NCBI RefSeq assembly: GCF_002013915.1
Contig: NZ_MBTF01000006.1
Coordinates: 1 to 64,000, forward strand
Direction of reading: 5' to 3'
DNA length: 64,000 nt
DNA from: Mucilaginibacter pedocola
Lineage (GTDB): Bacteria > Bacteroidota > Bacteroidia > Sphingobacteriales > Sphingobacteriaceae
The first letter of the stretch is position 1; each line of letters opens with the position of its first letter. The notes beneath the pieces are model-generated. The model was given only the letters and a program-made list of their open reading frames with translations. It had not been told where the DNA came from and made no database searches. This document shows, piece by piece, positions 7,156 to 55,690 of this stretch. The position numbers and the translations under genes were made by a program.

Positions 7156-7173
7156 TGCCCTAAAGATAGGGAT

Positions 7174-7214
7174 TTAGGATGTGCAGATATGCAAATGTGC
7201 GGATGTGCAGATGA
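7174..7214. repeat. GATGTGCA-type word repeat (copy 2)
   Basis: Direct repetition of GATGTGCAGATATGCAAATG-like words (GATGTGCAGAT occurs twice) in the gap before the membrane protein gene. Related to 5217-5262. Confidence 0.5.
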
Positions 7215-7239
7215 AAAATTTAGCGGGCTTCATGCAACG

Positions 7240-11953: not shown

Positions 11954-12031
11954 CAAGCGTTTGAATATCCAATGTTGAAGTCTCTTACTTCATTATTCGA
12001 AATTCATCATTCAGTGTTCTATATTAAATAG

Positions 12032-12066
12032 AAAACGCCCGAGGCAACAATGCCCCGGGCGTTTTT
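12032..12066. terminator. Bidirectional terminator between convergent genes
   Basis: AAAACGCCCGAGGCA pairs with TGCCCCGGGCGTTTTT around a 4-base loop, with A-tract and T-tract on either side. It serves the S9 peptidase gene and the convergent coiled-coil gene. Confidence 0.85.
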
Positions 12067-21297: not shown

Positions 21298-21463
21298 TGA
21301 TAGTCCGTAAGTCCGATGTCGGAAAGTCCGAAAGTCCAATGTCGGAAAGTCCGAAAGATAAGAAGAAGTCGGGATGCCCGAATGTATAAAAGTCCGAAAG
21401 ATAGGTCGCTAAACACGATTCTTCTTTCGGACTTCCTGACTTTCCGTCTTTCGGACTAAGATC
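21298..21463. repeat. AAGTCCGAAAGTC word-repeat element (copy 1)
   Basis: About 165 bases made of reiterated GTCCGAAAGTC / GTCGGAAAGTC words on the left and the complementary CTTTCGGACT words on the right, so the whole can fold into a long imperfect hairpin. It fills the gap between the phosphatase stop codon and thiE. Related stretches lie at 40082-40160 and 55501-55690. Confidence 0.7.
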
Positions 21464-26333: not shown

Positions 26334-28778
26334 TTAAAAGCTTAAACTAACCGAAGCCATAAAGTTGCGCGTGGCCTGCGGGAAGTAATAGTTGTAGTTT
26401 ACTACCTGCCCGCCCTCGATATCCGGATAGGTAGCACCATTGGCCTCGTACTTTTTGTTGAATACGTTATTCACCTGCAGCCCCAGCCCAATATTTTTCA
26501 CCGAGCGTACGCTGAAGTTGTACCGAACCCTTACATCACTCACAAAGTAGCTTTTCAGCAACCTATCAGTAACGTAAGCGTTATTGCCCGATACCGGGAA
26601 GCCTACCGGGTTGGTGTTTGATGTATTATCTAAATACTGCTGACCAATGTATTTGCTGATGAAGGCTATCTCGCCGCCTTTAATTGGCGTAAGGCTCAAC
26701 TCGCTTGAGCCAATGAACGAAGGCGAAAAGGCGATATTAGTTTTCTTCAACAGGATGAAGGCCTGGCTGCCGTCATCGTAATTGTTCAGGAACTGGCCGT
26801 AGTTCTTAATTTTATTACTGCTGATGGTTGCCGTAGCTGCCCAGCTTAGCGCTTTGGTAATTTTCAGTCGGCCATCCAGCTCAATACCCGTGCGGTAGCT
26901 ATCCTTTACATTGCTTCGTATTTGCGCACCAACATCGTTAAGCGAACCTGTTAATATCAACTGGTTTTTATATAGCATATAAAACAGGTTAATGCCTCCG
27001 CGGAATGCAGATGTAGCAACGCGATAACCCGCTTCAAAATCTTTCAGGTTCTCTGCTTTAGGGCGGCTGGCAGGTGTACTGTTTGTGTAATCGTCGCGGT
27101 TGGGTTCGCGATTGCCTACGGCGAAGGATGCATACACATTATTCTGCCCGTCGAACTCGTAGGTAACGCCCACTTTAGGATTGAAGAAATTGAGCGTAGC
27201 GTTCTGCTGAATGTTGTTCAAATTCCTGTCGAACCCTAAGAACGAGTAGTAAATTCGGCGGTACTGCATATCGGCAAATACGGTGGTATTACCGGTTTTC
27301 AACTCGCCACGGCCAAAGATGTTGAAATCGTTCTTGGTTGCATCGTCGCGGTAGTACTCGTAGTTCGGCGGTATACCGGCGCTCTCGCGGGTGTAAATAA
27401 TATTACCAAAGTGCGCGCCTTTATAGCGGTTGTACGCGCCACCGAGGGTGAAATTCAGGTTATCTTGCGGCAGGTATTTCAAGGCATAAGTAACGCCATA
27501 AAAATCGTTATCCAGCCAACGGCGGCGGGCTAAGTCGGTATTGGTGATGGTGGTGCCGCCTATTACAACAGGGGTTAAGCCGTAATCCTCTACGCTGGCA
27601 TCCGCTTTATACTCTTCGTAATAGCCTTTGCCTTTGGTGTAGTGCAGGGCACCACTGAAAGATACTTTGTCGGATAGTTTTTGGTCGTAAAGTAATTGGT
27701 AGTGGTTTTGCAGGTAATCGTCTACCTGGTCTTTATAAAAGCTGCCATCGGGCAGTATGCCCAGCTCGTTGTAAGTGCGGTTGTTTGGCAGGCTGTTATC
27801 GCTGATGATATAGTCGGGCACGCCGTTCCAGGCCTGGTAGGTGCGCTCGTAGCCCGAGAACACATTCGCACGCAAGGTGCTGTTTTTGCCGTAATAAGCA
27901 CCGCTCACAAAAAACGACTTCAGTTGCGACGATGCCCTGTCGATGTATCCATCGGATTTGATACGCGATAACCTTCCATCCACACTAAAGTGGCCACCTA
28001 ACAAACCTGTACCCAGGTTAATGGTGTTTTTTACCGAATTGAACGAACCCATAGAATTACTGATATCGGCATAACCTGTATCTCGCCTGGTTGTGGTTTG
28101 AATGTTGATACTCCCGCCGAACGCACCTGCGCCATTGGTAGACGTACCCACGCCGCGTTGCACCTGTATGTTGTTTACCGATGAAGCGATATCCGGCAGG
28201 TCGACAAAGAACGAACCCTGGCTTTCCGAATCGTTGTACGGGATGCCGTTAATGGTTACGTTCACCCGGCTGCCGTCACTTCCGCGTATGCGGATGCCGG
28301 TGTAGCCAATGCCCGCGCCTGCATCAGAAGTAGTTACTACCGATGGGGTTTGGTTAAGCAGGTAAGGCAGATCCTGCCCGAAGTTGTTCTTCTCCAAATC
28401 CTTTTTGCTCAGGTTGGTAAAGGCCGTTGGCGAGTTGCGGCCCGCACGGGTGGCGGTAACCACCACTTCTTCGGCACTGAAAACACCGTTGGCAAGTGTT
28501 AAATTGATAGTTTGGCTGCTGTTTAGTGCAACCGTTTTTGTTAATAGCTGGTAGCCCACATAACTGGCTTGCAGCGTGTAATTGCCTGCGGGCAGGTTGG
28601 TTAAATTGTAATTGCCATTAACATCGGCTTGTGCGCCACGGTTTAATTTGATGATACTGATGCTTGCGCCGGGCAGTACTTCGCCGGACTGGTTGATGAT
28701 TTTTCCGCTGATGGAAAATTGTGCCGATGCCACATACGGCAACAGCAGGGCGATAAGCGCCGCTAATAAATTTTTCAA
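26334..28778 (-). CDS. TonB-dependent thiamine receptor (Omr1-like)
   Basis: An 814-residue outer-membrane receptor. After a signal peptide ending ASAQ, residues about 21-95 form a CarboxypepD_reg-like domain (FSISGKIINQSGEVLPGAS), residues about 110-225 the plug (NNFGQDLPYLLNQTPSVV and GIRIRGSDGSRVNVTINGIPYN), and the rest a 22-strand barrel ending in the aromatic SVSLSF. Substrate assignment rests on the upstream TPP riboswitch and the downstream PnuT; this matches the thiamin-regulated receptor described in Bacteroidota. Repression by thiamine pyrophosphate is expected. Confidence 0.93.
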   Translation of the reverse strand: MKNLLAALIALLLPYVASAQFSISGKIINQSGEVLPGASISIIKLNRGAQADVNGNYNLTNLPAGNYTLQASYVGYQLLTKTVALNSSQTINLTLANGVFSAEEVVVTATRAGRNSPTAFTNLSKKDLEKNNFGQDLPYLLNQTPSVVTTSDAGAGIGYTGIRIRGSDGSRVNVTINGIPYNDSESQGSFFVDLPDIASSVNNIQVQRGVGTSTNGAGAFGGSINIQTTTRRDTGYADISNSMGSFNSVKNTINLGTGLLGGHFSVDGRLSRIKSDGYIDRASSQLKSFFVSGAYYGKNSTLRANVFSGYERTYQAWNGVPDYIISDNSLPNNRTYNELGILPDGSFYKDQVDDYLQNHYQLLYDQKLSDKVSFSGALHYTKGKGYYEEYKADASVEDYGLTPVVIGGTTITNTDLARRRWLDNDFYGVTYALKYLPQDNLNFTLGGAYNRYKGAHFGNIIYTRESAGIPPNYEYYRDDATKNDFNIFGRGELKTGNTTVFADMQYRRIYYSFLGFDRNLNNIQQNATLNFFNPKVGVTYEFDGQNNVYASFAVGNREPNRDDYTNSTPASRPKAENLKDFEAGYRVATSAFRGGINLFYMLYKNQLILTGSLNDVGAQIRSNVKDSYRTGIELDGRLKITKALSWAATATISSNKIKNYGQFLNNYDDGSQAFILLKKTNIAFSPSFIGSSELSLTPIKGGEIAFISKYIGQQYLDNTSNTNPVGFPVSGNNAYVTDRLLKSYFVSDVRVRYNFSVRSVKNIGLGLQVNNVFNKKYEANGATYPDIEGGQVVNYNYYFPQATRNFMASVSLSF

Positions 28779-28850: not shown

Positions 28851-29046
28851 TCCCTACGCCGGCATTACCCGGATCAGGTGCATGTTTTTTGGAGTTGAGA
28901 GTTGATGTTTAAAGCTTAAGCTATCGCTTTTGACTTTTTACTTCTAACTTTTGACTTTGCAAAACAATGGGTTTGATCTCAGCCTGTCTTTCAGTTTGGT
29001 AGAAACAACCTGCAGTTTATTTCTATTGGCCAAAGCAAGGCACCCC
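28851..29046 (-). promoter_or_regulatory. TPP riboswitch with a long insertion in the J2-4 junction
   Basis: On the minus strand the conserved pieces come in order: GGGGTGCC (29046-29039), GGCTGAGA (28984-28977), ACCC (28972-28969), ACCTGATC (28879-28872) and GGTAATGCCGGCGTAGGGA down to 28851. Two distances are odd. P3 is 54 bases (about 12 in E. coli thiM), which is common, but about 89 bases stand between ACCC and ACCTGATC, where about 5 are normal. The inserted part consists of AAGTCAAAAGTT/AAGTAAAAAGTC words, a small AGCTTAAGCT palindrome and CAACTCTCAACTCC. The riboswitch precedes the TonB receptor start by 72 bases. Confidence 0.9.
28887..28960 (-). repeat. AAGTCAAAAGTAAAAAGTC word repeat inside the riboswitch
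   Basis: A run of related A-rich words read on the minus strand as AAAGTCAAAAGTTAGAAG, TAAAAAGTCAAAAGC, then ATCAACTCTCAACTCC. It has the look of the other dispersed word repeats of this window, but I see no second copy of this exact type here. Confidence 0.5.
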
Positions 29047-32679: not shown

Positions 32680-32971
32680 TTTTAGGGGCCTACTATACCA
32701 ATACGCTACAACCCAACAACCCTACCATATCGAAATTTCATTTAAGTTAACTACTGTATCAAAACAAGGTTAACACAACTTAACATATTTTAAATTTTAA
32801 AAATTATAAACTATTGATAATTAATATATTATAGTTTAAAGAATTAACGATGGCAAAAGCTCAAATTTTTCGCATTGGTTAACAACCCTCCATTTATGCG
32901 AGTTAAGCACTTCGGCGAATATTTTATACGGCAAATAATTATATTTAGAAAAATTACCAAAGCCATAGCCA
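32680..32971. other. A/T-rich gap, no gene seen
   Basis: About 290 bases, strongly A/T-rich from 32740 to 32870, with several TTAAC words (GTTAACTAC, GGTTAACAC, ACTTAAC). No open frame of protein-like composition and no exact TAnnTTTG box is seen. A near match, TATATTTA, lies about 30 bases before the amidohydrolase start and may be its promoter. Confidence 0.4.
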
Positions 32972-36253: not shown

Positions 36254-37420
36254 ATGATAACGTTTTTACTACATTTGAGTTTGGAACAAAATTTTTCATA
36301 CTGGGAGCGCACCGCCTTTATAAATAATGCCGATGTAATTATCATTGGCAGCGGCATTGTAGGACTAAGCGCTGCCCTGCACCTGAAAACCCGCGAACCC
36401 CAGCTAAAGGTACTGGTGCTCGAACGTGGCTTCCTCCCCAGCGGCGCAAGTACCAAAAACGCGGGATTTGCCTGTTTTGGAACCGTTTCCGAGCAATTAT
36501 CCTATTTATCCGACTCTTCGGAAGAGGAAGTTGCCCGCCTGGTGAACTACAAATGGCGGGGCTTACAAAGGCTGAGGCAAAACCTGGGCGATGATAATAT
36601 TGATTACCACCAGCATGGCGGTTACGAATTGTTTATGCAGGCCGAAGAACAGCACGCCGACGAATGCATTGAAAAGATCGGCTATCTCAACACCCTGTTA
36701 AAAAACGCCATCAGCGGGCATGACATTTATTCAGTAGCGAATGAAAAAATTGCAGCTTTTGGCTTTAGCAAAGTAAGCCGAATGATATACAATCCCTTTG
36801 AGGGGCAGATACATACCGGCAAAATGATGCGCGCACTGCTGCATAAATGTTATGAGAAAGATGTAATGGTTTTGAACGGATGTAGTATTAACCGCGTTGC
36901 ACAGGCCGATAACCACATCCGTCTAAGTACTTCTCAGGGCGAGTTCAAATGCGGCAAAGTGATATTAGCCACTAATGCCTTCGCTAACCAACTATTCCCC
37001 GAATTAAAAGTGGTTCCTGGCCGGGGGCAGGTATTGGTTACTAAACCCATTCCCGGCTTAAAACTGCAGGGTACCTATCATTTCAACGAGGGGTACTACT
37101 ATTTCCGGAATATTGACGACCGGGTGTTGTTCGGCGGCGGCCGCAACCTTGATTTTACCGCCGAAGAAACCGCAGCGTTCGGGCATACCGATGCTGTGAA
37201 ACAAAGCCTCATCACGTATCTTAACGAAGTTATCCTCCCCGGGCAAAATGCCGAGGTCGACTACTGGTGGAGCGGCATTATGGGTTTTGGCGAAGGCAGC
37301 GGCCCTATAGTAAAACAAGTTGAGCCTAACATATTTTGCGCCGTACGCTGCAACGGTATGGGGGTTGCCATGGGCAGTTTGGTGGGTGAAGAAGTAGCTG
37401 AGTTGTTGCTGGAAAGCTAA
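36254..37420 (+). CDS. FAD-dependent amino acid oxidase-type oxidoreductase
   Basis: A 388-residue flavoenzyme of the DAO family. The Rossmann fold motif VIIIGSGIVGLSAALHL lies at about residues 27-45, and LERGFLPSGASTKNAGFACFG carries the second FAD contact. The C-terminal SGIMGFGEGSGPIVKQV is the family end motif. The substrate (probably an amine or amino acid) is unknown. The start is doubtful: a TAnnTTTG box (TACATTTG, 36270-36277) lies inside the N-terminus, and relatives usually begin close to the FSYWER stretch, so a TTG near 36281 may be the real start. Confidence 0.85.
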   Translation: MITFLLHLSLEQNFSYWERTAFINNADVIIIGSGIVGLSAALHLKTREPQLKVLVLERGFLPSGASTKNAGFACFGTVSEQLSYLSDSSEEEVARLVNYKWRGLQRLRQNLGDDNIDYHQHGGYELFMQAEEQHADECIEKIGYLNTLLKNAISGHDIYSVANEKIAAFGFSKVSRMIYNPFEGQIHTGKMMRALLHKCYEKDVMVLNGCSINRVAQADNHIRLSTSQGEFKCGKVILATNAFANQLFPELKVVPGRGQVLVTKPIPGLKLQGTYHFNEGYYYFRNIDDRVLFGGGRNLDFTAEETAAFGHTDAVKQSLITYLNEVILPGQNAEVDYWWSGIMGFGEGSGPIVKQVEPNIFCAVRCNGMGVAMGSLVGEEVAELLLES

Positions 37421-37439
37421 GCTTCGTGGACTGTATTAT

Positions 37440-38100
37440 TGAGGGGGCTACGCTGTAGCCAAAATGCACTTTTACTGTTTCTACAAACACGGTGCTCCTA
37501 CCGGAGCGCAAAGCCCAAACATACGTTGAGGCAATAATTAGCCGGCAAAACGGCTACAGGGTAGCCACGCGTTTGTAGAAATGCAATAAATTAATTTTGG
37601 CCTCGTTAGGCGCCTCCTTTCGCGTACAATGCCGTTAAGTTAAGCCTTCCGCTACCCCATTAGGGATAAAAGCTTTGTAGAAAATCCCGCCCCTAAGTTT
37701 GGAGTGCCGTAGGTACTCAACAAATCGGGTTCAACACCTAACGGCGTTTTATTTTTTTACTGCCTTTTTCTGTAGCCAAAATGCGCTTTGGATACCGTGC
37801 AGGGAGATCGTTTTTAAAACATACGCCGCAGTTTGGCTAAAGCCTGCGCAATCCCAACACCAAACCGTCCCATAAATGGGGACGACAATTAAGCTTGAAA
37901 AGTTGAATTCATTGCCGTTCGGCTTCAGCCAACGGTTTATGAGTTAACAAACGACGGCTTCAGCCAAATTTGAAGTAGCGATAATTTTCAAAGCGATTGC
38001 TCTCGGCTACAGTGTAGCCACGTGTTTGTAGAAATAGGATGAACTAATTTGAGGCTCCGTAGGTGCCTCCTTTCGCAAACATTGCCCGATGCGACTTTTC
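37440..38100. repeat. Intergenic block of GGCTACnnnGTAGCC / CTCCGTAGGTGCC repeats
   Basis: No gene is seen in the 690 bases between the oxidoreductase and helicase genes. Two 83-base direct copies (37552-37634 and 38004-38086) share CGGCTACAGnGTAGCCACG, GTTTGTAGAAAT, a palindrome of the type GGCTCCGTAGGTGCC, then CTCCTTTCGC. Partial copies occur at 37446-37470, 37484-37512 and 37770-37790. Between them lie GGAGTGCCGTAGGTACTC and two ACGGCTTCAGCCAA-type palindromes. Confidence 0.8.
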
Positions 38101-38113
38101 ACGCACAAACACA

Positions 38114-40699
38114 TTAAAACCCTCTTTTCCTGTTCCCTCCAATTCTTCTTGGCCTCGGTGACGGCTCGGGCACATCATCTTCATCGGCACCGTAGCGGCG
38201 GGCCATTTTGGCAATGCGTTCTTCCAGCGTTTCGGTAGTGAGTTTTTCGCGGCCAAGGCTGTCAACCATTATCGGGAAGGCAAATGGCGTAGGGCGTTCA
38301 ATGGTTTTTAAAACGATGCTTTGGGTTTGTATGCGCTGCAAAGCTGCCCGTAGCCTGAACTCTTCCAACTGAAAAGCCAGTGCTTCGTTATAGGCCTGCC
38401 GCACCAATAGGTTATCCGGCTCGTACTCCTGGAAAACCTCGAACAGCAACGATGTAGATGCCTGCAAGTGCTTGTTTTTTACCTGCTGCCCGGGATAGCC
38501 TGTAAACACCAGCCCACCAATGTGGGCAATATCCCTGAAACGGCGGCGTGCCATTTCGTTCGAGTTCAGGCTGTTTTGGATGTCTTCGATCAGGTTATTG
38601 ATAGAGAAGAAGTCTGCATCCTCTAAAGCCTGCTCAATAGGGATATCTTCATCCGTCAGCAGTTCAAATCCATAATCATTCATGGCGATGGAGAAACTTG
38701 CCGGTTTTATTTTGGAGATACGGAAGGCCAGCAAACTTGCCATCCCCTCGTGCACCAATCGCCCCTCAAAAGGATAGAACAGCAAGTGGTGCCCCTCGCG
38801 CGATTTGAAAGACTCTATTAAAAACTCATGGCTCTGCGGCAGGTGCGATAAGCGCGATTGCAGATCGAACAAGGGCTTCAGGGCTTTTACCTCAATATCT
38901 TCTTCACGACCGTGCGCTACCTCATCCAGCTTATCACGAAAAACAGCTGATAACTGCGACGACAACGGCATTCTTCCCCCCGCCCAGCTCGGTATCATCC
39001 CCTTGGTTTTGGTCGATTTTTTTACGTAAGCGGTCATCTCCTTTATTTTGATGAACTCCAGGCTTCGCCCGGCAAACCAAAAGGTATCACCGGGTTTCAG
39101 TTTCGATATAAAACCTTCTTCCAGCGTGCCCAGGCTGCCGCCGCTGAGCCATTTCACGCGGATGCTCAGCTCGCTGGTAATGGTGCCTATACTAAGGCGG
39201 TGTCGCATAGCCACGCGGCGATTATTCACTTTAAACAAACCGTTTTCTACCTCTACCTTCAAAAACTCATCGTACTGCGCAAGGGTTTTGCCACCGTTGG
39301 TAATAAAATCTAACAGCTGGTTAAACTCATCGCGCCGCAAGTCGGCAAAGGCAAAGGTGCTTTTCACCTCTTTGAATAATTCATCCGCCCTGAAGCCCTC
39401 TGATACCGCCAGCGTAACCATGTATTGTATCAGCACATCCATAGTAAGCAGCATAGGGTCGCGGCTTTCGAAAACGCCGTTTTGTATGGCTTGTTTTAAT
39501 GCCGCACCTTCCAATAATTCCAGCGAATGTGTAGGTACAAAATAGGCTTTAGAGATGGCACCGGGGTGGTGGCCGCTCCGCCCGGCACGCTGCATAAAAC
39601 GGGCAACACCTTTTGGGCTGCCTACCTGCACCACGGTATCTACCGGTCGAAAATCTACACCCAAATCAAGGCTAGATGTACAAACCACAACCTTCAGCGC
39701 TTCGGCGTGCAGGGCAGCCTCTACCCAATTGCGCAGTTCGTTATCCAGCGAGCCGTGGTGCATGGCCATTATCCCCGCATACTCAGGGTAATTATCAATA
39801 ATGGCATGGTACCATATCTCTGCCTGCGAGCGGGTATTGGTAAAGATGAGCGTGGTTTTGCTTTTGGATACTATCTCCATCACCTGCGGCAGCAGCTTAA
39901 CGCCTATATGCCCCGCCCAGGAGTAGTTCTCGATATTCGGCGGAATAACCGATTCAATCTGCAGCCGCTTGCTGATATTCGCCCGCACCATGCGTATCTG
40001 CTCCGCCGGAAAATCGTTACCCAACAGCACTTCGGCAGCTTGCTCCAGGTTGCCTATAGTGGCGGAGATACCCCAGACTTTAAGTTTGAAGTCTGAAGTT
40101 TGGAGTCTGAAGTTTGGAGTCTCGCCGCTTTCGACTTGAGGCTTCCGACTTAAGACTTTCAATTTACTTAAACCTAACTCCACCTGTACACCGCGTTTGG
40201 TGCCCAGTAGTTCGTGCCATTCGTCGCATACTAAAACCTGCAGACCGGCAAATACTTTGGGGTATTCTTTTTGGGCGAGCATGAGGTGCAAGCTTTCGGG
40301 GGTGGTGAGCAAAACCTCGGGCAGTTTGCGTTTCAGGGCAGCCTTTTCTGCTGCGGAGGTATCGCCGGTGCGGGTCATTACACGCCAGGGTAGCCCTATC
40401 TCGTCGCAAACCTCCTGCATGGCCTTACGGATATCGTTAGTTAGTGCGCGCAGCGGCGTTATCCAAAGCATCAGCAAGCCGTTGTTACTTTTGGTTTGGT
40501 AATTATCCGGGTGCTTATTGATGTAATCAGCCAAAAAAGGCAGGAACAAAGCAAACGTTTTGCCACTACCGGTTGGGGCATTCAACAGGCCCGAAAAGCC
40601 CGCAAGGTAGGCTTCCTCCATCTCCTTTTGAAAGGGGAACTGTTTCCAAGCCTTTTGCTTATACCATTGCTGTATTACCTGTTGCCCCTTTGTTGCCAT
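38114..40699 (-). CDS. Ligase-associated DEXH-box helicase (Lhr-like)
   Basis: An 861-residue ATP-dependent helicase of the Lhr family, of the kind that usually sits with an ATP-dependent DNA ligase and a nuclease in DNA-damage repair. ATG 40699 is preferred; the frame opens 7 codons earlier. Motifs: Walker A NAPTGSGKT (about 40-48), Ia TPLRALTND, II CDEWHELL (159-162), III ISATIG (about 211-216), IV-VI with TLIFTNTRSQAE, VVCTSSLDLGVDF and QRAGRSGHHPG. A winged-helix and the Lhr C-terminal core follow. About 25 residues (180-207) between motif II and III are encoded by an AAGTCTGAAGT word repeat and look like an in-frame insertion. The ligase and nuclease partners are not in the window. Confidence 0.9.
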   Translation of the reverse strand: MATKGQQVIQQWYKQKAWKQFPFQKEMEEAYLAGFSGLLNAPTGSGKTFALFLPFLADYINKHPDNYQTKSNNGLLMLWITPLRALTNDIRKAMQEVCDEIGLPWRVMTRTGDTSAAEKAALKRKLPEVLLTTPESLHLMLAQKEYPKVFAGLQVLVCDEWHELLGTKRGVQVELGLSKLKVLSRKPQVESGETPNFRLQTSDFKLKVWGISATIGNLEQAAEVLLGNDFPAEQIRMVRANISKRLQIESVIPPNIENYSWAGHIGVKLLPQVMEIVSKSKTTLIFTNTRSQAEIWYHAIIDNYPEYAGIMAMHHGSLDNELRNWVEAALHAEALKVVVCTSSLDLGVDFRPVDTVVQVGSPKGVARFMQRAGRSGHHPGAISKAYFVPTHSLELLEGAALKQAIQNGVFESRDPMLLTMDVLIQYMVTLAVSEGFRADELFKEVKSTFAFADLRRDEFNQLLDFITNGGKTLAQYDEFLKVEVENGLFKVNNRRVAMRHRLSIGTITSELSIRVKWLSGGSLGTLEEGFISKLKPGDTFWFAGRSLEFIKIKEMTAYVKKSTKTKGMIPSWAGGRMPLSSQLSAVFRDKLDEVAHGREEDIEVKALKPLFDLQSRLSHLPQSHEFLIESFKSREGHHLLFYPFEGRLVHEGMASLLAFRISKIKPASFSIAMNDYGFELLTDEDIPIEQALEDADFFSINNLIEDIQNSLNSNEMARRRFRDIAHIGGLVFTGYPGQQVKNKHLQASTSLLFEVFQEYEPDNLLVRQAYNEALAFQLEEFRLRAALQRIQTQSIVLKTIERPTPFAFPIMVDSLGREKLTTETLEERIAKMARRYGADEDDVPEPSPRPRRIGGNRKRGF
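40082..40160. repeat. AAGTCCGAAAGTC word-repeat element inside the helicase gene (copy 2)
   Basis: About 79 bases made of AAGTTTGAAGTCTGAAG words on the left and CGACTTAAGACTTTC on the right. The 13-mer ACTTAAGACTTTC also occurs at 55670-55682 in the intergenic copy. The element keeps the helicase frame open. Confidence 0.7.
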
Positions 40700-40840
40700 T
40701 GCCCATAATATACAATGCAAATTGTAATAAGTTGCAATAGCTTCAAAACTCTACGCTTTATTTTATGCAGCACAAAACCCGAGCCCAACAAAAGCAACGT
40801 ATGTTAGTTATAGTATATAACCAACCATAAATAACTTGAT

Positions 40841-41458
40841 ATGAAGGCTTACGTGCGTTTGATGATATTTTTTGCCATAGTGCTTATAGCTGCCTGCAAG
40901 CAAAAAGGTAACGGAACAAGCGATGCAGCTGACACAGCAGATGCACCCGACCTTCCCGACACTACCGAAGTACGCGCCATCCCTGCTGAGCAATTGATAA
41001 AACCCGGCGAAAGCATTGGCAAGATTAGGGTGGGAGAAGCTTTAGATTCGGTGATACTGGTGCTGGGCAAACCCGACACAGGCGATGCAGCCATGGGCAG
41101 CCAACTAAGCACATGGTATGCCAACCATGATACCACCGGTTATCAAACCAGCGTATTCAGCCACCGCAATATGGGCGGTAAGGACGAGAACAAGAGCCAT
41201 ATTAAGAAGATACTTGTCACCTCGCCATGGTTTAAAACTGCCGAGTACATCAGCACCGGCAACAACATGAAGGATATTGGTAAGTACTATAAATTAAAAG
41301 AGGGAAACAGCTACAAAGACAAAAACGAGCAAACCATTAAAACATACTCCGATATTGCCCGGGGTATCTCTTTTGAGATCGATGGCGCCGGCGAATGCGT
41401 GAGCATACTGGTACACCAGCCTAATTCAACGGCGGATACTTATTTGAATATGCATTAA
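40841..41458 (+). CDS. Hypothetical lipoprotein
   Basis: A 205-residue predicted lipoprotein: lipobox LIAACKQK (Cys near residue 19), an Asp/Ala-rich linker (about 22-45) and a globular part from PGESIGKIRVGEALDSVILVLGKPD onward. That segment resembles the repeated alpha-beta unit seen in BamE/SmpA-like or beta-lactamase inhibitor-like folds (G-x-I-x-x-G, V-x-x-x-L-G-x-P-D). No function is recognised. It is divergent from the helicase gene and stands alone. Confidence 0.75.
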   Translation: MKAYVRLMIFFAIVLIAACKQKGNGTSDAADTADAPDLPDTTEVRAIPAEQLIKPGESIGKIRVGEALDSVILVLGKPDTGDAAMGSQLSTWYANHDTTGYQTSVFSHRNMGGKDENKSHIKKILVTSPWFKTAEYISTGNNMKDIGKYYKLKEGNSYKDKNEQTIKTYSDIARGISFEIDGAGECVSILVHQPNSTADTYLNMH

Positions 41459-41487
41459 TGTGTTTGTGGCTATTCCTTGTTCTTTAT

Positions 41488-41590
41488 TTAACCGCAAAGG
41501 GCGCAAAGTTTTCGCAAAGGAGCACAAAGCCCGGCATATTAAAAAAGAGGCATTTACCTTGTTTTTTTCTTTGCGGCTTTGCGTGAAATG
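41488..41590. repeat. Hairpin repeat, CGCAAAGG type
   Basis: Begins TTAACCGCAAAGGGCGCAAAG and ends CTTTGCGGCTTTGCG, so the ends are inverted. Same family as 35074-35453 and 57240-57403. Confidence 0.7.
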
Positions 41591-41602
41591 ACTTTCTAAC
41601 AC

Positions 41603-41632
41603 AAAAAATGCCCGGCTACTCACCGGGCATTT
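41603..41632 (-). terminator. Terminator of the M16 peptidase gene
   Basis: A 10-base stem (AAATGCCCGG/CCGGGCATTT) with a 7-base loop; on the minus strand six Ts follow. It also faces the convergent lipoprotein gene. Confidence 0.85.
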
Positions 41633-41652
41633 ACATTCTTAATCCGTCGAAT

Positions 41653-44514
41653 TTACTTTTTCTCCGGCATCAATATCAATTTGATGAGGTTGCTGGTGTT
41701 TAAGTATTTCGTAGCCGTTGCTTTGGTGCTTTCTACGGTTATTTGTTCCAGGTTGCTTACGTGTTTCAGTATGTCGGCAGCGTTTTCGCCATTTTGCGAT
41801 GAACCGCCAAGGTAGCCTGCCCAAAATACATTCTCTTTTAACTGCACCTGGGTAGAGCGTGCTTCCTCGGCTACAAACTTTTGTATATCGGTAGCGGTTG
41901 CGCCGTTCAGCTTCAGTTTGCTTATTTCGTCCATGGTGGCGGCAATAAGCTTATCAACATTAGCGCTGCTGCAGGTAAAGTAAATGGTTACGGTATACCT
42001 GCCTGCCGGTATTTTGTTGTAAGTTATACGTACACCGGGTGAGTAAACGCCACTTTCCTGTTCGCGCAGGCGCTCGGTAAGTTTTATGTTCATCACCTCT
42101 TCCAAGGCATCCATCTGTATGTTGTTGGCTTCGCCATATTGGTAATCTCCACTGAACAGCATCTGTACCGAACTCTTATCATCCTGCCCTTTGTATACAG
42201 TTTTGGTTAACTGGCCTGCAGGTGGGTATATCTTCAGGTCGCGGTATGTTTCTTTTTTGCGGGTAGATGGCAACGACCCCAAATATGCCTCGATGTAAGG
42301 TTTAATTACGCCAACATCAAAATTACCTACAAAGGTGAAAGTAAAGCCGCTGGCATCGGCAAACCTGTCTTTAAAAAAGCTATAGGCCTTATCTAAAGTG
42401 GCTGCATTGAGGTTTGGCAATGTGGTAACCATAGCGCGCATGTTGTAGTTGCCCAATACTGCCGAAACCGTATCCTGGTAAACGCTCGACGGGTCTAAGC
42501 CACGGTTAGTCAGTATCGATCGTGTTTGGCTGATGTTGCCTTTCCAAATATCTTCATCCTTACGCGGCTGGGTAAAGTACAGGTAAATAAGCTGCATGGC
42601 GGTTTCAAAATCGCGCGGTGAGGCGCTGGCGCTTATGCCCTGCGTAGCATCTGCTATATACGGGCTCACGTTCACGTTTTTACCTGCCAGCATTTTCTCC
42701 AATTGTCCCTGGTTAAAATCGGCAATACCGCTACCGCCAATAATTGGCGCTGCCAGGTTAGCCGAAGTAAAATCGGCATCGCTGGCCAGCGATGTACCGC
42801 CAAAACTATAGCCGTTTATCAGTATCTGATCGTTTTTAAACTGCGTAGGTTTTAGTATTGCGGTAAGTCCGTTTTCCAGAACAAGCGTGGTAGTACCAAT
42901 AGCCTCATCGGTTGTTTCGCTGGCTATTTTGCCCGGTGTGGGTAACTTTTCCATCAGCGGCCTAATGGTAACGTTATCCACATAAGCCGTAACGCCGGCA
43001 CCGGCGGTATTTACCCAGGTTAAAAGTGTTTTTTCGTCGGGCAGTTTATCCTTGTCTTTTTCGGGGCCTTCAACAATTATAACGCGGTTTTGTTCGGTAA
43101 TCACCTGGGCAGCCATGGCGTTCATATCGGCAGTGCCAATTTTATTAATGTTGCTTGCAATAAAATTGTACTCGAAATCGATACCCGGGATAGCTTCGCC
43201 GGTAATAAAGTGCTGGCTATACTGGCGCACAAAATTTGCCGAGTTGGTTTTATCGCGTTCGTTAAAGGCGTTTTGCATTTGCACAAGCGTAGCTTGCTTG
43301 GCACGTTCTAACTCGGTTAACGTAAAACCAAATTTGCGTGCGCGCTCGGTTTCGCCAACCAGGGTTTTAACAGCATTTTGCAGGTCGCCGGGTTTGGCAA
43401 CCACTACTGCCGAGAAAGCATCCTGCTTGGCCACCAATGCTGAGTAGCTGGCCCTGGCATACAAAAATGGTGGATCGGGCTTGCGCTGCAACTCGTCTAA
43501 ACGCTGGCTCATCATGTAGTTGAACAGGTTTACACGTACATCGTGCATATAATCTGTAGTAGTTTTCACTACTCTTGCCGGGTGCTTAACCACAATTTGC
43601 GCAAGTGTGTATGGGAACTCAGCATCGGTAGCGATCTTCACTACAGTACCGGGTGCTGCAGGCACGTTATATATTGCCCTTGGTTTTTCACCGGCAGGGT
43701 TAGTAAGCCCCGAAAATTTGTTTTTTATCAGTTCTTCAACCGTCTTCACATCAAAATCACCCACGGCAATTACCGCCTGCAAATCGGGGCGGTACCAATC
43801 GTGGTAGAAGCTTTTAATGGTAGCGGCATCAAAGGTTTTCAATACACTCTCCTGCCCAATAGGTAAGCGCGATGCATAGCGCGAGTTGTTCAGCAACACA
43901 GGCAGGGTTTGCAGGCTTAAACGCTCTTGCGCGTTTTTACCGCGCAGGCGTTGCTCTTCCAGCACCACGCCACGCTCTTTATCAAGCTCACTTTGGTCGA
44001 AGGTTACATAGCCGGCCCAGTTAGCCAAAATGTTGAAGCCATTTTTGAATACTTCGGCGCTATCAGTCGGTAATGGCAGTTGGTATATGGTTTCGTCGAA
44101 AGATGTACGCGCATTTAGATCGGCACCAAAACGTACGCCCGATTTTTGCAGGTAATTTACCAATTCGTTCTTCGGGAAATCGCGCGTGCCGTTAAAGGCC
44201 ATGTGCTCGGTAAAGTGGGCAAGCCCTTGCTGGGCATCGGTTTCCAGTATAGAGCCGGCTTTTACTACCAAGTAAAGCTCGGCGCGGTTTTTTGGTTGCT
44301 CGTTGTGGCGTATGTAATAGGTAAGGCCGTTGGGCAGTTTACCTATGAGTACATCCTGATCGGTTGGTAACACGGTTGGCTTTACCACCGGTACAGCGGC
44401 AACAGGTTTGCTTTTTGGCGAAGGCGTGGGTTTTCTTTTAACCTGGGCAATGCTGCTTGTTGCAGCAACCGCAACAACTGCCAGGGTAACAGAAAAGTGT
44501 TTACTAAGGTTCAT
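41653..44514 (-). CDS. M16-family zinc peptidase (pitrilysin type), exported
   Basis: A 953-residue periplasmic metallopeptidase. A signal peptide ends SIAQ (about residue 24), then a Lys/Pro-rich linker. The first M16 unit carries the inverted zinc motif H100-x-x-E103-H104 in LAHFTEHMAFNGT and the distal Glu in DKERGVVLEEQRLR. A second, non-catalytic M16 pair occupies about residues 500-950, giving the usual four-domain clam shell in a single chain. It probably degrades short peptides. It is monocistronic, with its own terminator. Confidence 0.94.
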   Translation of the reverse strand: MNLSKHFSVTLAVVAVAATSSIAQVKRKPTPSPKSKPVAAVPVVKPTVLPTDQDVLIGKLPNGLTYYIRHNEQPKNRAELYLVVKAGSILETDAQQGLAHFTEHMAFNGTRDFPKNELVNYLQKSGVRFGADLNARTSFDETIYQLPLPTDSAEVFKNGFNILANWAGYVTFDQSELDKERGVVLEEQRLRGKNAQERLSLQTLPVLLNNSRYASRLPIGQESVLKTFDAATIKSFYHDWYRPDLQAVIAVGDFDVKTVEELIKNKFSGLTNPAGEKPRAIYNVPAAPGTVVKIATDAEFPYTLAQIVVKHPARVVKTTTDYMHDVRVNLFNYMMSQRLDELQRKPDPPFLYARASYSALVAKQDAFSAVVVAKPGDLQNAVKTLVGETERARKFGFTLTELERAKQATLVQMQNAFNERDKTNSANFVRQYSQHFITGEAIPGIDFEYNFIASNINKIGTADMNAMAAQVITEQNRVIIVEGPEKDKDKLPDEKTLLTWVNTAGAGVTAYVDNVTIRPLMEKLPTPGKIASETTDEAIGTTTLVLENGLTAILKPTQFKNDQILINGYSFGGTSLASDADFTSANLAAPIIGGSGIADFNQGQLEKMLAGKNVNVSPYIADATQGISASASPRDFETAMQLIYLYFTQPRKDEDIWKGNISQTRSILTNRGLDPSSVYQDTVSAVLGNYNMRAMVTTLPNLNAATLDKAYSFFKDRFADASGFTFTFVGNFDVGVIKPYIEAYLGSLPSTRKKETYRDLKIYPPAGQLTKTVYKGQDDKSSVQMLFSGDYQYGEANNIQMDALEEVMNIKLTERLREQESGVYSPGVRITYNKIPAGRYTVTIYFTCSSANVDKLIAATMDEISKLKLNGATATDIQKFVAEEARSTQVQLKENVFWAGYLGGSSQNGENAADILKHVSNLEQITVESTKATATKYLNTSNLIKLILMPEKK

Positions 44515-55500: not shown

Positions 55501-55690
55501 AGTCGGAGGTCCGAAGTCGGTAAGTCCGAAGAAGCGGCAAAGTACGTAAAATGTTTTTATTTGAGAGTCCGAAGTCGGTAAGTTGGGAAAGTCCGAAAGA
55601 TGAATAGTGTCGTATTCCTGTCCTTTCTTTGGGCTTTCGGACCGCGGACTTTCCGACTTCTGACTTCCCACTTAAGACTTTCCGACTTAA
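55501..55690. repeat. AAGTCCGAAAGTC word-repeat element (copy 3)
   Basis: About 190 bases with GTCCGAAGTCGGTAAG words on the left and CTTTCGGACC/CGACTTAAGACTTTCC words on the right, the complementary arrangement seen in 21298-21463. It fills the space between the kinase and gltX promoters. Confidence 0.7.

Follow-up and report, generated by a model that had tools for sequence, protein, structure and literature searches.

Cyanobacterial genomes carry short tandemly repeated repetitive (STRR) heptanucleotide sequences. Heptameric repeats of Xanthomonas and Nostoc are described in PMC4692102 as under-represented in coding regions and mostly located on one strand, and PMC2408588 gives an intergenic Nostoc sequence of similar appearance, ttgtcagttgtcagttgtca, with 44 copies. 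The Rickettsia palindromic elements (RPE) are described as palindromic repeats of ~150 bp that lie in frame in unrelated genes, to which they add a peptide, and that occur between genes as well (PMC10969869, citing Ogata et al. 2000, 2002). REP and REPIN elements, which go with RAYT transposases, are short inverted elements present in many copies per genome (PMC3116915, PMC2817692, PMC3733652). The locus considered here lies in a 64,000-nt stretch of Mucilaginibacter pedocola DNA (contig NZ_MBTF01000006.1, positions 1 to 64,000; below, the window), where an array of 7-nt words arranged in inverted arms occupies, in frame, a loop of a ligase-associated DEXH-box (Lhr-like) helicase. Comparison of this loop among related genomes leads us to the view, to which we assign a probability of roughly 0.7, that genome-resident arrays of 7-nt words have repeatedly entered, in frame, a permissive slot, the loop between motif II and the SAT motif.

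The helicase gene (38114–40720, minus strand) is an open frame of 868 aa starting from TTG, with an in-frame ATG at residue 8; most ortholog matches begin at query residue 7, near that ATG. The whole protein scores 1086 bits against TIGR04121 (curated cut-off 850) and contains the Pfam domains DEAD, Helicase_C, WH_Lhr, and DEAD_assoc. The closest solved structure in both sequence and fold comparison is Mycobacterium smegmatis Lhr (5v9x). Between motif II (DEWH, residues 166–169, 40214–40225) and the SAT motif (ISAT, residues 218–221, 40058–40069), both on the minus strand and read from the translation, comparison with orthologs delimits a variable linker, VQVELG...WG, of 40 aa (residues 178–217, 40070–40189, minus strand). 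A 78-nt core of this linker (residues 189–214, 40079–40156, minus strand) consists of inverted heptads, with a lag-7 identity of 0.65 (z = 7.3 relative to codon shuffles). Read on the plus strand, positions 40082–40123 hold three 14-nt copies of AAGTTTGRAGTCTG, equivalent to six AAGTTTG/AAGTCTG heptads; as the reverse complement, this is the downstream arm of the mRNA. The other arm, AAGTCTT AAGTCGG AAGCCTC AAGTC on the coding (minus) strand, covers 40133–40158, with the reverse-complement words reaching 40158. An earlier reading of the window (the original prediction) gave these words and coordinates correctly and placed the word-derived segment at residues 180–207; the core is instead at residues 189–214, and the net gain in the linker is 19 residues (40 compared with 21 in most of the distant orthologs).

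The word pattern, with up to three mismatches allowed, has 10 matches in the window compared with 0.27 expected, and six of the ten are at the helicase site. The same site has the top score (35/49 at lag 14) in a periodicity scan of the window at lags 5–11 and 13–15. Its lag-7 score of 33 is tied with one AT-rich stretch at 32774–32853, and ten shuffles of the window yielded no lag-7 region over the threshold. The insert folds weakly as DNA (z = −1.5) and more clearly as RNA (z = −3.6). Given the weak DNA fold, we rejected the idea that a strong hairpin in the DNA is what functions at the helicase, and we also rejected a known RNA at the insert, as an Rfam search over 37000–42000 returned two sub-threshold chance matches, neither of them at the insert.

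We searched 149 genomes for the helicase, of which 143 contain an ortholog at the threshold used and six do not; 142 sites were fetched and 141 were read, with G097 (a C-terminal fragment) and L176 (located at a contig end) omitted. Those close relatives that have names are Mucilaginibacter, and the slot in the 141 Mucilaginibacter sites ranges from 21 to 221 aa, with four sites at 24 aa or less. Among 27 distant orthologs from Cytophagales, Saprospiraceae, Balneolaceae, Chitinophagaceae, and other groups (L260–L286), the linker has 21 aa in 21 and ranges from 21 to 37 aa. In 12 other Sphingobacteriaceae and close relatives (L239–L245, L247, L248, L250, L255, L258), the linker measures 25–59 aa, with visible words in several of them, such as L255 and L258; that of L241, a metagenome-assembled genome (MAG), contains a stop. 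Comparison with other helicases supports the claim that word-repeat DNA has been inserted here in frame (40 aa compared with 21 aa in 21 of the 27 distant orthologs, whose linker is short at that place), and none of the 27 has the same residues at this position. What does not hold is the picture of a single peculiar insertion of the strain's own element that related strains might lack. Nearly every ortholog within the genus has a filled slot, mostly with a different word, and other genes (lysA, mnmE, and recN, see below) carry such inserts too.

Period statistics were computed for 127 inserts, leaving out ten nuclease-bearing inserts and four with a core shorter than 36 nt. Identity at lags 7, 14, 21, and 28 was 0.50, 0.47, 0.43, and 0.35, respectively, compared with ~0.26 in codon shuffles (z = 62 at lag 7), and the lag-7 period was individually significant in 113 of the 127. 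Inverted pairs of 6-mers numbered 1802 compared with 207 in shuffles. In the 37 inserts of AAGTC type the word runs forward and then reversed, as AGTC occurs 102 times in the 5′ half and twice in the 3′ half and its complement 3 and 126 times, respectively. Selection at the protein level cannot produce this period, as 7 is not divisible by 3. The numbers of stop triplets in the three codon phases of 131 inserts are 0, 241, and 294; therefore, the open frame is strictly kept, with no in-frame stop tolerated. The inserts are DNA repeats filtered for an open frame.

These data bear on the possibility that the insert works as a protein module with selected residues, in which the repeats are incidental. 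The frame is kept in all 141 read loci, and a polar loop of low complexity, situated close to the catalytic core, might influence how the enzyme works. However, the 7-nt period runs out of step with the codons and is still seen at lags 14 and 28, the residues are wholly different between close relatives, and distant orthologs lack the insert. AlphaFold2 also assigns the insert no structure. In the model of the helicase (33 sequences; mean predicted local distance difference test score, pLDDT, 76.9), its neighbors are a helix on one side and the SAT strand on the other, and pLDDT is < 50 at model residues 187–202 (model numbering plus 8 gives the numbering of the 868-aa frame); this predicted low-confidence loop agrees with the low-complexity loop envisaged in the original prediction. 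We consider a selected protein module very unlikely. An assembly or binning artefact is hardly credible: many of the genomes are drafts or MAGs and repeats are hard to assemble, but the inserts are present in single-contig genomes and named isolates, the frame is kept throughout, and for the same contigs the independent sets of records agree.

A simple pattern rule divides the 141 inserts into AAGTC-type (A-type, 37 inserts), GGCAGTT-type (B-type, 34), hairpin GGAGAGG-type (12), GCGG/GCACC-type (11), CACTCAC-type (C-type, 10), nuclease-bearing (10), ATCTCC-type (4), GACTAT-type (3), and short (2). On a helicase tree constructed without the insert, the 123 classified rows, a count that omits the unclassified inserts, require at least 59 changes of word class. 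Label shuffles on the same tree gave a mean of 73 changes and a lowest value of 64 among 300, which indicates some inheritance but very fast turnover. Whole inserts are exchanged between close relatives. The flanks of the slot in G125 and G126 are 94.5 and 95.5% identical and the inserts are unrelated, an 81-nt AAGTC array in G125 and a 138-nt GGTTCGG array in G126, while G125 and G023, at 92.6%, have their insert in common. The nearest relatives of the M. pedocola genome, with protein identities of 92–94%, have CACTCAC, CACTCAC, and GGCAGTT words in the helicase. Another relative contains a perfect tandem array of at least 25 AAGTCCG heptads (G010:C9:289550–289729).

It is possible, although we doubt it, that one ancient inverted array has resided in the slot all along and that its word has changed in place without new insertion, by slippage, template switching between the arms, or gene conversion from other copies in the genome. 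Such a history is consistent with the slot being filled in nearly all orthologs, with the existence of two-word hybrids, and with the observation that the two arms usually share their word (34 of 34 B-type inserts by a crude test), as arm-to-arm correction would give. It is difficult to reconcile with the clean exchange of an 81-nt for a 138-nt insert between 95% identical flanks with no intermediate, and with the replacement of arrays at the same site by CTCTCC/GGAGAGG hairpins and nuclease inserts.

Alternatively, the inserts could be carried by horizontal exchange of helicase alleles between species. In favor of this, synonymous codon choice at the two residues that immediately precede the insert tracks the word (9.7 vs. 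0.5 pairs for Leu and 8.1 vs. 0.4 pairs for Lys; median p = 0.006 for Leu in phylogenetically independent pairs). However, the association is absent at a Leu codon 15 nt further upstream (3.6 vs. 5.0 pairs), and the flanks of close relatives are alike while their inserts are different. Any exchanged tract must therefore be very short, or the last codons are part of the element. We regard allele exchange as unlikely, and long co-conversion tracts are unsupported by the upstream codon.

Ten of the helicase inserts, 172–221 aa in length, enclose a DUF559 domain in frame (PF04480, E = 1e-34 to 1e-36 in the three that were scanned) and are bounded by CTCTCC/GGAGAGG-type sequence. All ten keep the motif PDF..(I/V)E(V/I)DG.YH, which we take to be the likely nuclease motif, and the Pfam scan of three of them found no splicing domain. 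The ten DUF559 domains form one clade (100/100), apart from the DUF559 of other host genes, and are scattered over the host tree (8 changes compared with a shuffled mean of 9.7). Site-specific descent combined with scattered hosts is the pattern expected from a homing-like element or from repeated loss. DUF559 is also found in frame in a leucyl-tRNA synthetase (L193, scanned) and in an IcmF-like fused CoA mutase (17 rows, L191, L192, L195–L197, L203, and others), where the only row scanned, L191, comes from a truncated locus and falls slightly short of the IcmF cut-off. In the mutase and the synthetase the domain is flanked by LTPALSKGEG / LSFGEDLGEA peptides, which read as CTCTCC/GGAGAGG hairpins, and further DUF559 matches lie in open frames of ~350–470 aa.

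The nuclease inserts allow a speculative scenario, which we put forward tentatively, where an undescribed active process swaps whole arrays at fixed slots of housekeeping genes, with the DUF559 nuclease perhaps acting as the driver at the helicase slot. The nuclease would cut slots that have no insert, repair would copy in any available array, and any array would shield the gene from further cutting. If such a swap process exists, the genome's own repeats would be a vocabulary from which parts of proteins are rewritten all the time.

Slots of this kind exist in other genes. We examined 41 AAGTC elements of the M. pedocola genome, 16 of which span an open frame of at least 150 aa. In several of the 16 the element precedes the start codon, and five elements are clearly inside the protein: in lysA, mnmE, and recN (identified with NCBIfam), a DUF6371 protein, and an acidic protein (L301). 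The slots of the first three were compared in the 30 best-scoring loci per gene, of which 28 were read for lysA, 29 for mnmE, and 20 for recN, the rest having failed the motif patterns. The lysA slot measures 13–37 aa in the loci read, with a lag-7 z of 16.5 over 15 sequences and several different words recognizable by eye. The mnmE slot lies between what we presume to be the NKxD and SAK motifs and has 16–18 aa in 14 of 29 orthologs and up to 50 aa in the others; its inserts have an 8-nt period (lag-8 z = 17 over 15 sequences). The recN slot ranges from 6 to 34 aa, with a lag-8 z of 10.7 over 12 sequences. In lysA the words rotate as in the helicase; the mnmE and recN slots are variably occupied, by 8-nt words. 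The recN slot that holds AAGTC octads in M. pedocola is occupied in relatives (L355, L360, and others) by an alternative in-frame insert, PQPPKGG, apparently from another palindrome family. The DUF6371 protein (L296:1137–2369) has AAGTC-type words before the domain and GGCAGTT-type words within the domain-matched stretch. The acidic protein (L301:1107–2402) is of low complexity and has no family match, and its SEVES(L/P)xSE segments are spelled by AAGTC heptads.

The word present in the helicase is always found elsewhere in the same genome as well (37 of 37 genomes for A-type, 34 of 34 for B-type, and 10 of 10 for C-type inserts). Genomes that bear a word in the helicase also have more matches to it than the other genomes, with medians of 36 compared to 3 for AAGTC, 25 compared to 6 for GGCAGTT, and 54.5 compared to 8 for CACTCAC. 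These counts refer to overlapping matches, not elements; for CACTCAC, which is nearly identical backwards and whose control counts are high in many genomes, the reversed pattern is a poor control. Of AAGTC and GGCAGTT, the word borne by the helicase has more matches than the other in 52 of the 71 A- or B-type genomes, with two ties. The M. pedocola genome has 85 matches to the AAGTC pattern compared with 8 for the reversed control.

Related words also form intergenic elements in the window. One inverted element, with mixed 7- and 8-nt units, was located by word match at 55501–55690, and the original prediction was right that it shares a 13-mer, ACTTAAGACTTTC, with the helicase insert; in 492 random 190-base windows no shared stretch of 13 bases was found. 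A second inverted element at 21298–21463, recognized by its lag-8 peak, folds as a strong DNA hairpin (z = −5.9). The proposed link of the insert to this element is looser than was claimed: the word family is related, but the units are largely of 8 nt (AAGTCCGA/AAGTCGGA) and there is no common stretch of 10 or more bases. The lag scan also detected 7-, 8-, or 15-nt periodic stretches at 28883–28965, 11980–12038, 7157–7224, and 27666–27730. Neither of the first two is inside an open frame of at least 200 aa, and 28883–28965 reads as inverted AAAGTCA-like words.

Several observations weigh against a slot repeatedly supplied from resident arrays. The relationship between the helicase word and its abundance is not significant in paired independent lineages, with the direction unchanged (6.1 vs. 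2.5 for A-type, median p = 0.34; 8.0 vs. 1.3 for B-type, p = 0.065; 4.0 vs. 0.8 for C-type, p = 0.375). The M. pedocola genome has more GGCAGTT matches (124) than AAGTC matches, yet its helicase bears AAGTC. A donor copy was not traced, and no full-length donor search of the genomes was made. Some inserts (L006, L019, L093, L132) have two different arm words, which whole-element insertion does not predict, and 18 of the 141 inserts were left unclassified by the pattern rule. No transposase or target duplication was found, Y1 transposases being the only ones sought, at the loci of this genome; LK residues border the slot in filled and short orthologs alike, and a target duplication is not readable there. 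With the helicase word present elsewhere but the paired tests non-significant and GGCAGTT in excess in this genome, the derivation of the helicase insert from genome-resident donor arrays is therefore likely rather than demonstrated.

Mobilization by a RAYT (Y1) transposase, as for REP/REPIN elements, is another candidate. A REP doublet consists of two inverted copies around a loop, an architecture that the inserts resemble, and the M. pedocola genome has four Y1_Tnp genes. However, the AAGTC, GGCAGTT, and CACTCAC words are absent at all four Y1 loci of this genome (3.2–3.3 kb each), and other palindromes adjoin the gene at three of the four. RAYT mobilization of the word arrays is therefore unsupported, and we judge it improbable. 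The three Y1 genes in question, at L377 (1985–2357), L378 (1964–2213), and L379 (1308–1961), adjoin palindromes of their own, such as TAGCGATGGGTTTGAAACCCATCGCTA, and look like REP/RAYT pairs.

Our preferred explanation for the helicase loop remains the repeated arrival of word arrays from within the genome. A resident array would be copied or transposed into the permissive loop, and a later array would replace the earlier one. Selection would act mainly by preserving an open frame and a soluble, flexible loop, frame-breaking copies being removed, and the helicase would work with any insert. Repeat DNA would then supply raw material for protein sequence within a short time, and the filter that can be seen at work is the open frame. 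The slot, followed over ~140 genomes, is a replicated natural experiment, where the same loop holds many unrelated inserts and close relatives differ. Such comparisons allow one to ask how small bacterial repeats spread and which mechanism swaps them, and they bear on how much unselected sequence an enzyme tolerates near its catalytic core. They also call for caution, as alignments and family models across such loops compare unrelated DNA.

Among known systems, homing endonucleases and inteins are similar in that ten inserts at the same site encode a nuclease-fold DUF559 domain in frame, forming one clade in scattered hosts; unlike in inteins, the nuclease stays part of the protein, is not known to cut, and is bounded by CTCTCC/GGAGAGG hairpins. 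The excess of inverted 6-mer pairs (1802 compared with 207) recalls the terminal inverted repeats of miniature inverted-repeat transposable elements (MITE). REP/REPIN elements, as characterized in the papers cited above, are likewise short, inverted, and present in many genomic copies, but they are not word arrays, and the Y1 loci of this genome bear other palindromes. As with RPE, a palindromic repeat lies in frame in unrelated genes, here the helicase, lysA, mnmE, recN, and the DUF6371 protein. However, an RPE family as described in PMC10969869 is one shared sequence, whereas in Mucilaginibacter a single slot holds unrelated arrays, each matching words present at other places of its genome; these arrays consist of 7- or 8-nt words repeated in tandem, with arms in inverted orientation. 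The degenerate 7-nt words in tandem, in many copies per genome and with signal at lags 7, 14, 21, and 28, are similar to STRR and the Xanthomonas and Nostoc heptamers, but, unlike the heptamers as PMC4692102 portrays them, the Mucilaginibacter arrays form inverted pairs and are located in frame in housekeeping genes. Excerpts from the literature on heptanucleotide and palindromic repeats, DUF559, Mucilaginibacter, Bacteroidetes, and the helicase contain no description that we recognized of rotating word inserts. Compared by description, not by sequence, the word arrays would be filed under neither RPE nor STRR, and we read them as a new form of in-frame selfish repeats, which permissive loops capture time and again and in which one word repeat takes the place of another.

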